Positions 41,041-45,817 of a DNA stretch of 64,000 bases are shown here, one piece after another (the stretch's first letter is position 1; the number at the start of each line of letters is the position of its first letter). The translations under genes were made by a program, and so were the position numbers. Origin of the DNA: Methanomassiliicoccales archaeon PtaU1.Bin124 (GTDB lineage: Archaea; Thermoplasmatota; Thermoplasmata; Methanomassiliicoccales; UBA472); NCBI GenBank assembly GCA_002067865.1, contig MVRC01000016.1, positions 1-64,000 of the forward strand, written 5' to 3'. The notes under the pieces are model-generated. The model did not search any database. It saw only the letters and a list, made by a program, of their open reading frames with translations, and had not been told where the DNA came from.

Positions 41041-41200
41041 GCAGCGCCACCATTTTTCCTTCTTTGTTCGTTCAGCGAGTGGAGTGGACCGTATATAATA
41101 TTGTCAGGATAGATGACGGATTTGATATGGACGGAACGATAATTATCTTCGATACCGCCATTATGTTGATTTTTTTGTAAAAATCCGCCTTCTCGGAATG

Positions 41201-41235
41201 GTTATATACCGTGTGTGTCATCCCTTGACACGCAC
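41201..41235 (+). promoter_or_regulatory. leu operon promoter with large operator-like inverted repeat
   Basis: TATA box GTTATATACC (41201-41210) predicts transcription start near 41230. Directly after it, GTGTGTGTCA-TCCCT-TGACACGCAC (41211-41235) is an inverted repeat with one mismatch in ten. It covers the space between TATA and start, an ideal position for a repressor. If transcription begins earlier it could instead be a leader hairpin. Confidence 0.6.
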
Positions 41236-41247
41236 CGAGGGTAGCAG

Positions 41248-41292
41248 ATGAGGCAATCCATCTTTATTGGCGAATTGCTTTTGCTTCACTGA
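41248..41292 (+). CDS. Candidate leucine leader peptide, 14 codons
   Basis: ATG through TGA encodes MRQSIFIGELLLLH. It lies between the predicted start of transcription and leuA, with GAGGG six bases before the ATG, a perfect archaeal ribosome-binding site. Four consecutive leucine codons (TTG CTT TTG CTT) precede His and the stop. The stop is 42 bases before the leuA ATG. The Leu codons and stop overlap one arm of a possible hairpin (TTCACTG 41285-41291 with CGGTGAA 41313-41319), and CCATCT (41258-41263) can pair with the leuA Shine-Dalgarno AGGTGG (41323-41328). The arrangement fits ribosome-dependent control by leucine-tRNA supply. Not proven; 14 codons is short and chance is possible. Confidence 0.55.
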   Translation: MRQSIFIGELLLLH

Positions 41293-41333
41293 AAGGACTC
41301 ATTGCTTAATCCCGGTGAATTCAGGTGGTTATA

Positions 41334-42938
41334 ATGACCGACCCAAGGAATTCGGACAGCGCGGGCTCAAAAGGGCCAGACCAGGCGACGGTACAGGAGC
41401 ACATATTTACTAGCCAGTACAACCGCTTGGCCTTGCTGGACACGGTTCCAGAACATGTCATGATACTGGACACGACGCTGCGTGACGGGGAGCAGACCCC
41501 GGGAGTGGCGCTCTCCATCGATGACAAGATCAAGATAGCGACCGCCCTGGCAGAACTGGGCGTGGACGTCATAGAGGCCGGGTTCCCGATGACATCCGCC
41601 GGCGAAAGGGAGTCGATGCGGAAGATCGCAGACCTGAAACTGGGCTCTAGGATCTGCGGCCTGGCGAGGTGCAACAAGGCCGACATAGATGCGGCGCTGG
41701 ACTGCAAACTGGACTATGTTCACACCTTCATAGCCACATCCGACCTCCACCTCACCCACAAGCTCCGCATGACGCGGGAGCAGGTGAAGGCCAAGGCCAT
41801 CGAGGCCATCGAATATGCCAAATCCCACGGTCTCACAGTGGAGTTCAGCTGCGAGGACGGAACCAGGACGGACCTGGCGTTCCTGAAGGAGATGCATCAG
41901 GCGGTGCAGCAGGCAGGGGTGGACAAGATCAACCTGCCCGACACGGTAGGAACCATGTCGCCTCCGGCCATGGAGGAGCTGGTGAAACAGCTCATGACCG
42001 TCACCAAGGTCCCCCTCAGCATACATTGCCATAACGATTTCGGACTGGCCGTGGCCAACTCGCTTGCTGCGGTCAGGCAGGGCGCCAAGCAGGTGCACGT
42101 CTGCGTGAACGGCATGGGGGAGAGATGCGGCAACGCCTCCCTGGAGGAGATAGTCATGGGCCTAACCGCCTTCTATGGGACGAAGACCAATGTGGTCATG
42201 AACCGCATCGGTTACACCTCCAAGATGGTCTCTAGGCTGACAGGCATACCGATCCCCGACAACAAGCCCATCGTGGGCAATCACGCCTTCGCCCATGAAT
42301 CAGGCATCCACGTTCACGGCGTGCTCAAGAACCCCGCCACTTATGAGGCGTTCAGCCCCGAGCTGGTGGGAATGAGGCGCAACATCGTGGTGGGAAAGCA
42401 CAGCGGGGCCCACTCCATCCGGGAGAAGCTTTCGCAATACGGCATGGAGCTCACAGAGCCCCAGCTGACCGATGTGCTGGAGAAGGTGAAGCGCCTGGCC
42501 GAGAGCGGCAAGGAGGTGGACGACGCAGAACTGGTGGCGTTGGCATCCCACGTGCTGGGCCAGAGCGTGCGTTCCAGGCACAAGATAACGCTGAAGGAGT
42601 TCACTGTCTTCACCGGCCTGAACATCACCCCAACCTCCACCGTCGTGATCGAACTGGACGGGGAGACGAGACGCAGCTCCAACATCGGCATCGGGCCGGT
42701 GGACGCAGCCCTCAACGCGATAAAGGCGGCGGTCAGCGACAAGATATCGCTAGTGGAGTACCGCCTGAGCGCCATCACCGGCGGCAGCGACGCCCTGTGC
42801 GAAGTGAGCGTCAAGCTGCAGCTGAACGACGAGAAGGCACTTTCCATCGGCAAGAGCATAGGCACGGACATAGTCCTCACCAGTGTGGATGCGACCATCG
42901 AGGCCATCGACCGCCTTTACTCGCGCAAGAACGCCTGA
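41334..42938 (+). CDS. leuA: 2-isopropylmalate synthase (or related citramalate synthase)
   Basis: 534 residues. A 38-residue N-terminal extension precedes the DRE-TIM barrel: LDTTLRDGEQTPG near 48-60 and the metal-binding HCHNDFG are intact, and the C-terminal regulatory (LeuA dimer) domain is present from about 390. First committed step of leucine synthesis: acetyl-CoA and 2-oxoisovalerate. Related synthases using pyruvate (CimA) or 2-oxoglutarate (homocitrate synthase) share this layout, but the downstream leuC-leuD-leuB genes and the leucine-rich leader favour LeuA. ATG with AGGTGG five bases ahead is chosen over a GTG three codons upstream. Confidence 0.85.
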   Translation: MTDPRNSDSAGSKGPDQATVQEHIFTSQYNRLALLDTVPEHVMILDTTLRDGEQTPGVALSIDDKIKIATALAELGVDVIEAGFPMTSAGERESMRKIADLKLGSRICGLARCNKADIDAALDCKLDYVHTFIATSDLHLTHKLRMTREQVKAKAIEAIEYAKSHGLTVEFSCEDGTRTDLAFLKEMHQAVQQAGVDKINLPDTVGTMSPPAMEELVKQLMTVTKVPLSIHCHNDFGLAVANSLAAVRQGAKQVHVCVNGMGERCGNASLEEIVMGLTAFYGTKTNVVMNRIGYTSKMVSRLTGIPIPDNKPIVGNHAFAHESGIHVHGVLKNPATYEAFSPELVGMRRNIVVGKHSGAHSIREKLSQYGMELTEPQLTDVLEKVKRLAESGKEVDDAELVALASHVLGQSVRSRHKITLKEFTVFTGLNITPTSTVVIELDGETRRSSNIGIGPVDAALNAIKAAVSDKISLVEYRLSAITGGSDALCEVSVKLQLNDEKALSIGKSIGTDIVLTSVDATIEAIDRLYSRKNA

Positions 42939-42947
42939 GGGATGACA

Positions 42948-44210
42948 ATGCACGGACATCACAAGACCATAGCAGAGAAGATTTTGAGCGCCAAGTCCGG
43001 TAAGGACGCCAAGGCAGGCGACATCGTCGATGCGAACGTGGATTATGTCATGGTGAACGATGTGACCGGTCCCCTCGCCTTCCAGGAGTTCGAGGCGCTG
43101 GACTGCCAGCCTGTCAGGGAGAAGATCGTCCTCATCCCTGACCACTATGTGCCGAACAAGGACGTGGCCTCGGCCCAGCAGGCCAAGGAGATGAGGGAGT
43201 TCGCCAAGCGCTGGAACATCCCTAACTACTACGAAGTGGGGAGGGGCGGCGTATGCCACCAGGTGATGATCGACGAGGGTTTCGCGGCCCCTGGACGTCT
43301 CATCGTCGGGGCGGACAGCCATACCTGCACCTACGGCGCCCTTAACGCCTTCAGCACCGGCGTCGGTTCCACCGAGGCCGCAGCGGTCTTCGCCACCGGC
43401 CGGCTCTGGTTCAAGGTGCCCGAGTCCATCCATGTCGTTTTGAAGGGCCGCCTGGGCCAATACGTGGCCGGAAAGGACCTTATCCTCAAGCTTATCACCG
43501 ACATCGGAGTGGACGGGGCGAACTACAAAGCACTGGAGTTCGCCGGTACCGGCGTCGCTGGCCTCAACGTATCGGAGCGAATGAGCATCTCCAACATGGC
43601 CATCGAGGCCGGCGGGAAGGCCGGCATATTCCCTTGCGATTCGGCCACCGTGGCCTTCATGAAGACCACCGACGCTGGCAAGTGGTCGGCGGTCACCGCC
43701 GATTCCAGCGCCGTCTACTGTTCGGAGCTGGAATACGACCTCTCCAAGCTGGAGAGCATGGTCTCCATGCCCCACCTTCCATCAAACGGAAAACCGGTCA
43801 CGGAGGTCGACGTGCAGATCGACCAGGCCTTCCTCGGATCTTGCACCAACGGTAGGATCGAGGACCTTCGTCTGGGGGCGCAGATCCTGAAGGGCAAGAA
43901 GGTCCATCCGGACGTGCGCTTGATAGTCGTACCGGCCAGCACCAGGATATACCAGCAGGCTCTGGAAGAAGGCCTCATCGCCGAGTTCGTGAAGGCCGGG
44001 GCGTTCGTCTCCGGACCGACCTGCGCCGCCTGCCTGGGCGGTCATATGGGCGTGCTGGCCAAGGGTGAGAGGTGTGTCAGCACCACCAACCGCAACTTCA
44101 TCGGCCGCATGGGCCACAAGGAATCATTCGTCTACCTGGCCAGCCCGGCGGTCGTGGCCGCCAGCGCCATCGCGGGCCGCATCGTCCGCCCGCAGGACCT
44201 GAAGGAGTGA
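42948..44210 (+). CDS. leuC: 3-isopropylmalate dehydratase, large subunit (or homologous aconitase family)
   Basis: 420 residues, aconitase superfamily with the three cluster cysteines: GSCTNGRIEDLR and GPTCAACLGGHMG. Isomerises 2- to 3-isopropylmalate with LeuD. Archaeal paralogues can act on homoaconitate or citramalate, so specificity rests on context. A first ATG (42942) lies directly against GAGGG; the second ATG, six bases on, has proper spacing and is used here. The same tandem-ATG junction recurs at argB. Confidence 0.88.
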   Translation: MHGHHKTIAEKILSAKSGKDAKAGDIVDANVDYVMVNDVTGPLAFQEFEALDCQPVREKIVLIPDHYVPNKDVASAQQAKEMREFAKRWNIPNYYEVGRGGVCHQVMIDEGFAAPGRLIVGADSHTCTYGALNAFSTGVGSTEAAAVFATGRLWFKVPESIHVVLKGRLGQYVAGKDLILKLITDIGVDGANYKALEFAGTGVAGLNVSERMSISNMAIEAGGKAGIFPCDSATVAFMKTTDAGKWSAVTADSSAVYCSELEYDLSKLESMVSMPHLPSNGKPVTEVDVQIDQAFLGSCTNGRIEDLRLGAQILKGKKVHPDVRLIVVPASTRIYQQALEEGLIAEFVKAGAFVSGPTCAACLGGHMGVLAKGERCVSTTNRNFIGRMGHKESFVYLASPAVVAASAIAGRIVRPQDLKE

Positions 44211-44219
44211 GGTGAGAAA

Positions 44220-44714
44220 ATGAAGAACGTGAAGGGCAAGGTCTGGAGGTTCGGGGACCATGTGGACACGGACCAGATCATACCGGCCGAGAGGCTCACC
44301 AGCGATAACAATGACAAACTGGGCAAGTTCGCCTTCGAGAAGGTACGACCAGGCATGGCCGAGAAGGTGAAGAAGGGCGACGTTATCGTGGCGGGGAGGA
44401 ACTTCGGCTGCGGTTCGAGCAGGGAGCACGCGCCGCGCGCGCTGCTCCAGATGGGCATAAACTGCGTCGTGGCGCAGAGCTATGCCCGCATTTTCTATCG
44501 CAATTGCATCAACACCGGACTGCTGCCGGTGGAATGTTCGGTCGAGGCCGATGAGGGCGATGTCCTATCGGTCGATTTCGGAAAGGGCACGATCAGGAAC
44601 GAGACCAGCGGCAAGGAATGGCGGTTCGCTCCCTTCCCTGAGTTCGTCCAGGACCTGATCGACAAGGGCGGCCTCATGGCCAAGATCAAGGAGGAAAAGA
44701 AATGCACAAAGTAG
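44220..44714 (+). CDS. leuD: 3-isopropylmalate dehydratase, small subunit
   Basis: 164 residues, swivel domain: begins VKGKVWRFGDHVDTDQIIPA, with YLRT/ERLT-type loop (AERLTSD) that determines substrate in the family, and NFGCGSSREHAP near 62-73 binding substrate. Partner of leuC, nine bases downstream; its last 13 bases overlap leuB, so all four leu genes form one transcription unit. Confidence 0.9.
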   Translation: MKNVKGKVWRFGDHVDTDQIIPAERLTSDNNDKLGKFAFEKVRPGMAEKVKKGDVIVAGRNFGCGSSREHAPRALLQMGINCVVAQSYARIFYRNCINTGLLPVECSVEADEGDVLSVDFGKGTIRNETSGKEWRFAPFPEFVQDLIDKGGLMAKIKEEKKCTK

Positions 44715-45817
44715 CGGTCCTGCCAGGGGACGGCATTGGCCCGGAGGTTGTCCGGGAGGGCATGAAAGTATTGAACGCTCTGGAAGAGAACTACTCGGTC
44801 AAGTTCGACTTCACCGAGATGAACATCGATGCAGAGCGCTACCTGAAAACGGGGAAGCTGCTCACAGCTGAGGACGTGGACGCCCTGAAGAAGTTCGATG
44901 TCATCTTCCTCGGCGCCATCGGCGACGACCGCGTGGCACCGGGGGTGCTGGAGAAGGGCATCCTGCTCAGCCTCCGCTTCACCTTCGACCAGTACATCAA
45001 TCACCGCCCTGCGCCCCTATGGAAGCCGTTCGGCCGCCTGAAGCGGGATGTGGACTTCAACATCGATGTGTTCAGGGAGAACACCGAGGACTACTACATC
45101 GGTGCCGGGGGAAGGGTCAACAATGGTTCTGGCAAGCTTGACCTGAGGGTCAAGAGGAACCTCTACGACCTCAAGGTGCAGCTGCAGGCAGAGGCGGACA
45201 CCAAGACCGACTTCGCCTTCGAGATCGGCATGATGTCCCGCAAGAACATCGAGCGCTTTGCAGATTTCACCATCTCCTACGCCAAGCTCATAGGGGAAAA
45301 ATATGTGACCATCGTGGACAAGGCCAACGTATGCAGTAACATCTACGGCCTGTGGCGCGAGGTCTGGACCGAGAAGTGCAAGCAGTCCAACATGGAGTTC
45401 GGCTTCATGTTCGTGGACGCGATGTCCATGGCCTTGGTGAAGAACCCGGACAAGTTCAGGGTGGTCGCGACGCCGAACATGTTCGGTGACATCCTCACCG
45501 ACCTGCTGGCCGAGGTCACCGGCGGTCTCGGTCTGGCCCCAGGCGGCAACATCAACCCGAACGGCATCTCCATGTTCGAGCCAGTGCATGGCTCCGCCCC
45601 GAAGTACAAGGGCATGAACACCATCAACCCCATCGCCACCATCCTGGCGGCGAAGATGATGCTGGACAACCTCGGCCACCGCGACCTGGGCCAGATCGTC
45701 CACGACGGCGTGAGGAAGGCCCTCGACCAGCATGTCTACACCAGGGACCTGGGCGGAAAGGCGACCACCAGCGAGATGGGGGACGCCGTGGTCAAGGCCA
45801 TCCGCGCGATGAAGTGA
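44702..45817 (+). CDS. leuB: 3-isopropylmalate dehydrogenase
   Basis: 371 residues, decarboxylating dehydrogenase: NAD-binding and substrate motifs LPGDGIGPEVV (6-16), RENTEDYYIGAGG, and the late signature TPNMFGDILTDLLAEVTGGLGLAP. Converts 3-isopropylmalate to 2-oxoisocaproate. Members of the family acting on isocitrate or homoisocitrate are close, so specificity rests on the operon. No branched-chain aminotransferase or acetolactate synthase gene is in the window. Followed by a T-run. Confidence 0.9.
   Translation: MHKVAVLPGDGIGPEVVREGMKVLNALEENYSVKFDFTEMNIDAERYLKTGKLLTAEDVDALKKFDVIFLGAIGDDRVAPGVLEKGILLSLRFTFDQYINHRPAPLWKPFGRLKRDVDFNIDVFRENTEDYYIGAGGRVNNGSGKLDLRVKRNLYDLKVQLQAEADTKTDFAFEIGMMSRKNIERFADFTISYAKLIGEKYVTIVDKANVCSNIYGLWREVWTEKCKQSNMEFGFMFVDAMSMALVKNPDKFRVVATPNMFGDILTDLLAEVTGGLGLAPGGNINPNGISMFEPVHGSAPKYKGMNTINPIATILAAKMMLDNLGHRDLGQIVHDGVRKALDQHVYTRDLGGKATTSEMGDAVVKAIRAMK

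Follow-up and report, generated by a model that had tools for sequence, protein, structure and literature searches.

A putative leucine leader peptide ahead of leuA in Methanomassiliicoccales and a proposed control of the leu operon by ribosome stalling

The locus

The window, i.e., the whole stretch of 64,000 nucleotides that was analysed, comes from a genome of 2.2 Mb that belongs to the order Methanomassiliicoccales. It carries the operon leuA-leuC-leuD-leuB, with leuA as the first gene (Table 1); the function of leuA and the names of leuC, leuD and leuB are those that we presume from the translations and from established knowledge of these families. Ahead of leuA lies a complete short reading frame, MRQSIFIGELLLLH, comprising 14 codons and a TGA that is separated by 41 nt from the leuA ATG at 41334. 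Transcription is predicted from the TATA box to start at approximately 41229-41232. An earlier note, made from the letters of this DNA, had described the frame, its Shine-Dalgarno (SD) sequence, the four Leu codons and the leuA SD, and had located the motifs TTCACTG (41285-41291), CGGTGAA (41313-41319) and CCATCT (41258-41263); our reading of the sequence agrees with it in all of these positions.

Table 1. Features of the leader region and the leu operon in the window
Feature	Position	Strand	Basis
Predicted TATA box TTATATAC	41202..41209	+	sequence, comparison with relatives
Leader stem, 5' strand: P0 CACCG-A-GGGT and P1 AGCA-G-ATGAG	41233..41252	+	holds leader SD and start codon
Leader SD GAGGG	41237..41241	+	sequence; spacing to leader ATG 6 nt
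Leader ORF, codons ATG AGG CAA TCC ATC TTT ATT GGC GAA TTG CTT TTG CTT CAC TGA	41248..41292	+	orthologues ahead of leuA in 84 of the order's 90 readable upstream regions, plus other Thermoplasmata families
Run of four consecutive rare Leu codons, TTG CTT TTG CTT	41275..41286	+	sequence and rare-codon enrichment
Leader stem, 3' strand: CTCATTGCT (P1), ATCCCGGTG (P0)	41298..41317	+	between leader stop and leuA SD
leuA SD AGGTGG	41323..41328	+	sequence; 5 nt 3' of stem
leuA (2-isopropylmalate synthase type), proposed controlled gene	41334..42938	+	ORF; orthologues across the order
leuC, leuD, leuB, downstream in operon	42942..45817	+	ORFs, translations

Conservation of the leader frame

The comparison covered 147 genomes of Methanomassiliicoccales, 101 of which have leuA, with 90 readable upstream regions; the family and genus labels used below (f1, g1 and so on) are groups of the genome search, and the leader in each genome was chosen by eye among the candidate frames. 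A leader with a Leu run occupies the same place in 84 of the 90 regions, in six families of the order. Its stop lies 18-69 nt (mostly 32-45 nt) upstream of leuA in these 84 regions, its length varies from 12 to 21 aa, and its N-termini are unrelated between families; examples are MRHNKMICLLLLLH, MNKHILANILLLRH, MSAIHYSIYCLLRL, MSIIIVDGHGLLRA and MSINVLDWNLILRLL, as well as MNAERLGLLLILRLVPAPLL, MCIIATKLALILREY, MICNAFIGLLLLLE, MIFKLTTELILLK and MVDVHDVPDILLL. A GAGG- or GAGGT-like SD precedes the leader in most relatives, some f5 leaders being without one. In 58 of the 84 regions a TATA-like box stands 45-51 nt ahead of the leader ATG, a placement that fits a leader inside the transcript; in 12 it stands elsewhere, 14 regions are unmatched, and the interval from the leader to leuA contains no such box. 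The leader extends beyond the order: it was present in all 16 of the f8 genomes examined (e.g., MAHKSTGLLILPLGLLILA), in f24 (MDAKRSSASILPLQLLLLLC) and in f27 (MEPQFRKPLLLTLRLLPQA), and absent from one shorter, more distant match outside the order (L218). Within the order, six f6 genomes of genera g22 and g27 (L119, L120, L127, L128, L097 and L098) have leuA without a Leu-run leader. In L119 and L120 the apparent P0 pairing is kept and the Leu run is absent, a possible natural loss.

Of the 84 leuA regions, 63 contain a correctly placed frame with at least three Leu among its last eight residues, compared to 1.5 expected from dinucleotide shuffles; these 84 regions were selected for carrying the leader, and the unselected figure is 84/90. 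None of 30 hisG and trpE upstream regions from the same genomes had even two Leu in the last eight residues. It should be noted that the automatic leuA start is wrong in a few loci (in the window, GTG 41325 instead of ATG 41334), so that the 3' edge is slightly shifted in some of the statistics. The leuA leader frame is not a chance occurrence. The comparison of relatives that the earlier note had proposed shows a conserved short frame and Leu run among residues that drift, and lends strong support to its core claim of a leucine leader peptide ahead of an archaeal leuA.

Codon usage and selection

In the closest within-genus pairs, the non-Leu codons of the leader differ by 88 nonsynonymous and 26 synonymous changes, compared to 27.0 synonymous changes expected, i.e., they evolve neutrally. 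In the same pairs, 31 of the 40 changed Leu codons either remain Leu (17) or exchange with Ile (14). The Leu codons are also unusual in kind: TTG and CTT account for 56 of 68 (82%) in f1 leaders and for 109 of 700 (16%) in leuA genes (Fisher p = 8e-30; p-values are descriptive, because related genomes are not independent), while CTG, the main Leu codon, falls from 59% in leuA genes to 4% in f1 leaders. The codons that make up the Leu run differ in f6 and f8 (CTT CTT CTT; CTT ATT CTG), the f6 nucleotides being CTTCTTCTT. Conserved control codons in an otherwise drifting frame, and control codons that are rare, are thus found here as in leaders of the leuL/ilvL kind. Neutral drift elsewhere, combined with rare Leu codons that are kept, is indicative of control by codon reading and not of a functional peptide. 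A sequence-specific arrest peptide or a functional small protein is accordingly most improbable; the frequent Leu-Leu-Arg of the f1-f5 leaders is in its favour, but the neutral rate at the non-Leu residues, the range of lengths and the unrelated N-termini are against it.

A separate observation concerns CTTTTGCG (CTTTTGCT in g1), at 41278-41285 in the window, which is nearly invariant in the f1-f5 leuA leaders despite possible synonymous codons. This suggests an extra constraint, which may act at the RNA level or on codons.

Leaders at ilvB and control operons

Lineages with the leuA leader (f1, f2, f3, f5 and f8) also have a leader with Val/Ile/Leu runs upstream of ilvB. That of the window's genome is MSNVRTSVPVVLLGLGVVVVI (L130); others are MSNDSTGEKRSMLLSLLTVVVVL, MTTRSSFRTISCISAVVIIIS and MSRCSTDRSVFSVLSVVVVLIR, and, in f8, MREPAGQGGPMPILVVLGVLVDLRILRP. 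The number of Val per leader is 4.23 at ilvB versus 0.62 at leuA, and residue specificity tracks the operon product, with Leu at leuA and Val/Ile/Leu at ilvB. Both biosynthetic operons are thus preceded by a short translatable frame with a run of end-product codons. In f1-f5, a hairpin (mostly GAGGCATCC..GGATGTCCTC) begins at or just 3' of the ilvB leader stop. No leader frame was found upstream of hisG or trpE in the same genomes, nor upstream of ilvD, the leuA paralogues or the f6 ilvB genes at the loci examined; these leaderless genes serve as negative controls.

Under termination-reinitiation, a mechanism suggested for bacterial leader genes that lie a short distance from the next gene (PMC4833913), the leader would merely deliver ribosomes to leuA. 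Translational coupling is lost beyond approximately 30 nt in E. coli and Haloferax volcanii (PMC12548453), and the prevailing stop-to-start spacing of 32-45 nt exceeds this limit, which makes reinitiation unlikely. Mere delivery also leaves the Leu runs at leuA and the Val/Ile runs at ilvB unexplained, and we regard this explanation as very unlikely.

Three further observations were made at related loci. In genomes with two ilvB copies (L130 and L154 in G000:C15; L221/L222; L219/L237), the two leaders differ, one being Val/Ile-rich (VVVVI, VVIII) and the other having a Val/Leu run without Ile (PVVLSVVV, SVQVLLV, SVQVLVV), as if the isozymes answered to different amino acids. In the trpE promoters (L181-L192), which have no leader frame, a palindromic sequence (e.g., TGTACAATAATGATTATATATGCTCATTGATGTAC) surrounds the TATA box and resembles a TrpY-type operator. 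In a Woesearchaeota MAG (JAFGPE010000157.1; L033 ~2800-2990), the frame MNISYQVGLVLVLVVLLVLI lies shortly after a TATA box, ahead of leuA-ilvB-ilvN, and is followed by a GC-rich hairpin; it is a candidate for an independent branched-chain leader in another archaeal phylum.

Structure of the leader RNA

The leader of the window is predicted to fold with a minimum free energy of -28.6 kcal/mol (z -2.39). RNAalifold applied to alignments returned nearly nothing for f1-f5 and only a 5-bp helix for f6, because the leaders are too diverged to be aligned; for this reason, partner-swap tests were used instead, in which the pairing of a strand with its own partner is compared to its pairing with the partners of other genera. 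The outer helix, P0, recurs with differing sequences in the majority of genera in each family (CACCGAG/CTCGGTG, CCAATCC/GGATTGG, AGCCGGG/CCCGGCT, ACCGTC/GACGGT and CCACTT/AAGTGG), and its own partner paired better in 24 of 26 genera. The same test favoured P1, between the start codon region and sequence at the leader stop or 3' of it, in 14 of 16 genera of f1-f5, and P2, between the stretch before the Leu codons and the stretch after the stop, in 9 of 10 genera of f6. Shuffled sequences were less stable than the leader in 25 of 26 genera, and the predictions include a closing stem in 25 of 26; among the genera shown, P0 mostly ends near the leuA SD or overlaps it. By these predictions, the initiation region of the leader is paired with the stretch between the leader stop and the leuA SD in a conserved, covarying stem.

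The pairings put forward in the earlier note fared differently. TTCACTG/CGGTGAA is present in genera g1 and g4, where it would compete with P0, and is not general beyond these two; CCATCT/AGGTGG was absent upon inspection of the relatives. Besides the conserved stem, no conserved competing structure was seen across genera, and conservation is lacking for a hairpin between the leuA SD and leuA codons (15 of 26 genera). Rfam yielded no match in 10 loci at the gathering score and none at E<=1 within 41100-41500. In f6 leaders such as that of L106, the nucleotides that follow the leader stop (CCAGTGAGAGCTAGG) are similar to part of the N-terminal leuA codons (CCAGTGAGAACGCTAGG).

The conserved stem, together with the near-invariant octamer of the f1-f5 leaders, would also be expected of a riboswitch or a protein-binding hairpin whose reading frame has no role of its own. 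Such a structured RNA element is hardly to be expected here, given that f6 and f8 keep the Leu run in other nucleotides, that ilvB has a parallel Val/Ile/Leu leader, that the codons are biased toward rare ones and that Rfam has no match.

Terminator search and output models

The search for intrinsic terminators found no site in 41150-41450, and no GC hairpin followed by a U run, the mark of classical attenuators, lies between the leader and the first gene. The longest T run is at most 3 in 40 of the 84 leaders, and a U run is not conserved. A terminator-antiterminator attenuator of the classical kind is thus not supported, given the absent terminator and the unconserved U run. In transcription attenuation more broadly, the stalled ribosome would determine which RNA structure forms, so that RNA polymerase is either halted or released before leuA, at a U-tract or through FttA. 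This is how classical bacterial leu/ilv leaders operate, and some f6 and f8 leaders do have U runs of 5-6 after the stem; the window, however, has no terminator-like site, and the short T runs in nearly half of the leaders are against it. FttA is probably the cause of archaeal polarity (PMC12548453), but its action on untranslated RNA would cut expression upon stalling, the wrong direction for a biosynthetic operon. We consider transcription attenuation improbable, albeit the least so of the alternatives.

Folding models were also applied to access to the leuA SD. When pairs across the stalled ribosome are allowed, the predicted cost of opening the leuA SD is nearly unchanged, and when P0 is blocked, with leuA codons included, the SD becomes harder to open (20-21 of 26 genera). 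When the stalled ribosome is treated as a barrier, the SD with 9 upstream bases becomes more accessible in 22 of 26 genera, a gain that is partly built in because this interval overlaps the stem itself, whereas the SD alone becomes less accessible. At ilvB, the SD is predicted to be harder to open with the ribosome at the stop than with the ribosome stalled upstream in 19 of 30 cases, which is the expected direction, and the opposite holds in 7. The folding models disagree on the output, and the sign of their predictions depends on the assumptions.

Discussion

Comparison of relatives shows a leader frame that is selected for rare end-product codons at two operons and lies inside a conserved stem. 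We propose, with a probability of roughly 70%, that the frame in the window is a genuine leucine leader peptide, in which sensing by stalling is joined to a stem-based output that controls leuA. The parts of this proposal differ in strength. Sensing of leucine by ribosome stalling is strongly supported by the comparative evidence as a whole; control of leuA at translation initiation is probable; the output step is the least certain part.

In the proposed mechanism, ribosomes would translate the leader and, upon shortage of Leu-tRNA, stall at the rare Leu codons. If no stall occurs, the ribosome would run off and the RNA could close the stem of 41233-41252 with 41298-41317, which would hide the leader SD and start codon and abut or overlap the leuA SD, such that translation of leuA is lowered. 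A ribosome stalled in the loop would block closure of the stem, and leuA and the leu operon would be translated when leucine is scarce. This fits the positions of the helices, as the inner ones adjoin the Leu codons and P0 adjoins the leuA SD. Translation initiation at leuA is favoured as the controlled step because a terminator is absent, U runs are unconserved and polarity through FttA has the wrong sign. The ilvB leader of the same lineages, with its Val/Ile/Leu codons and, in f1-f5, its hairpin directly 3' of the stop, may follow the same principle. More tentatively, and with a chance that we would put a little short of even, the class Thermoplasmata may have its own terminator-free form of stall attenuation, in which a stalled ribosome props open a stem that otherwise shuts both the leader and the first gene, at leuA and ilvB, and possibly also in other archaeal phyla (Woesearchaeota leuA-ilvBN).

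In bacteria, attenuation by a leader peptide is textbook knowledge; we know of no archaeal amino-acid leader peptide. The open-access literature searched yielded work on bacterial leader peptides, surveys of archaeal small proteins and reviews, and contained no such example, although one may exist in a subscription journal. Judging from the sequence comparisons, archaea with leuA and ilvB leaders very probably use ribosome stalling to detect a lack of amino acids, a control hitherto known from bacteria. Two residue-matched leaders conserved over an archaeal class make amino-acid sensing by leader translation directly testable in archaea, and likewise the question of which output operates where a terminator is absent. 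In addition, more than 100 conserved small frames are added that are normally left unannotated by length cut-offs.

Among known systems, enteric leuL is a short, SD-preceded frame with consecutive Leu codons, some of them rare, before the leu operon, with pairings that overlap the frame. The archaeal leader is similar in its short SD-preceded frame, its consecutive rare Leu codons, its position next to the leu operon and its predicted RNA pairings overlapping the frame; it differs in its archaeal host and promoter, in having no intrinsic terminator and no Rfam match, and in a stem formed by the leader's own initiation region and the segment preceding leuA. In translation attenuators, e.g., of the erm type, ribosome stalling exposes a downstream SD. 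The output level proposed here, access to a downstream SD, would be the same, but the signal would be a shortage of charged tRNA at rare codons and not an antibiotic, and the SD switch is putative. Archaeal trp genes are under DNA-binding control of the TrpY type. TK0271 of Thermococcus is reported to be a DNA-binding protein that controls amino-acid genes (PMC6737238). These systems share with the leuA leader the control of amino-acid operons in archaea, and are not known to involve codon sensing. The bacterial ilvBNC leader of Corynebacterium is reported to be a short frame with a run of branched-chain codons (PMC11857589, PMC10272879). The archaeal ilvB leader likewise has branched-chain codons in a row within a short frame ahead of ilvB; it differs in being archaeal, in having at its stop a conserved GAGG..CCTC hairpin that lacks a U run and in its unrelated sequence. 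The archaeal leaders thus appear to work like the bacterial leu/ilv leaders, yet lack the terminator that defines classical transcription attenuators.
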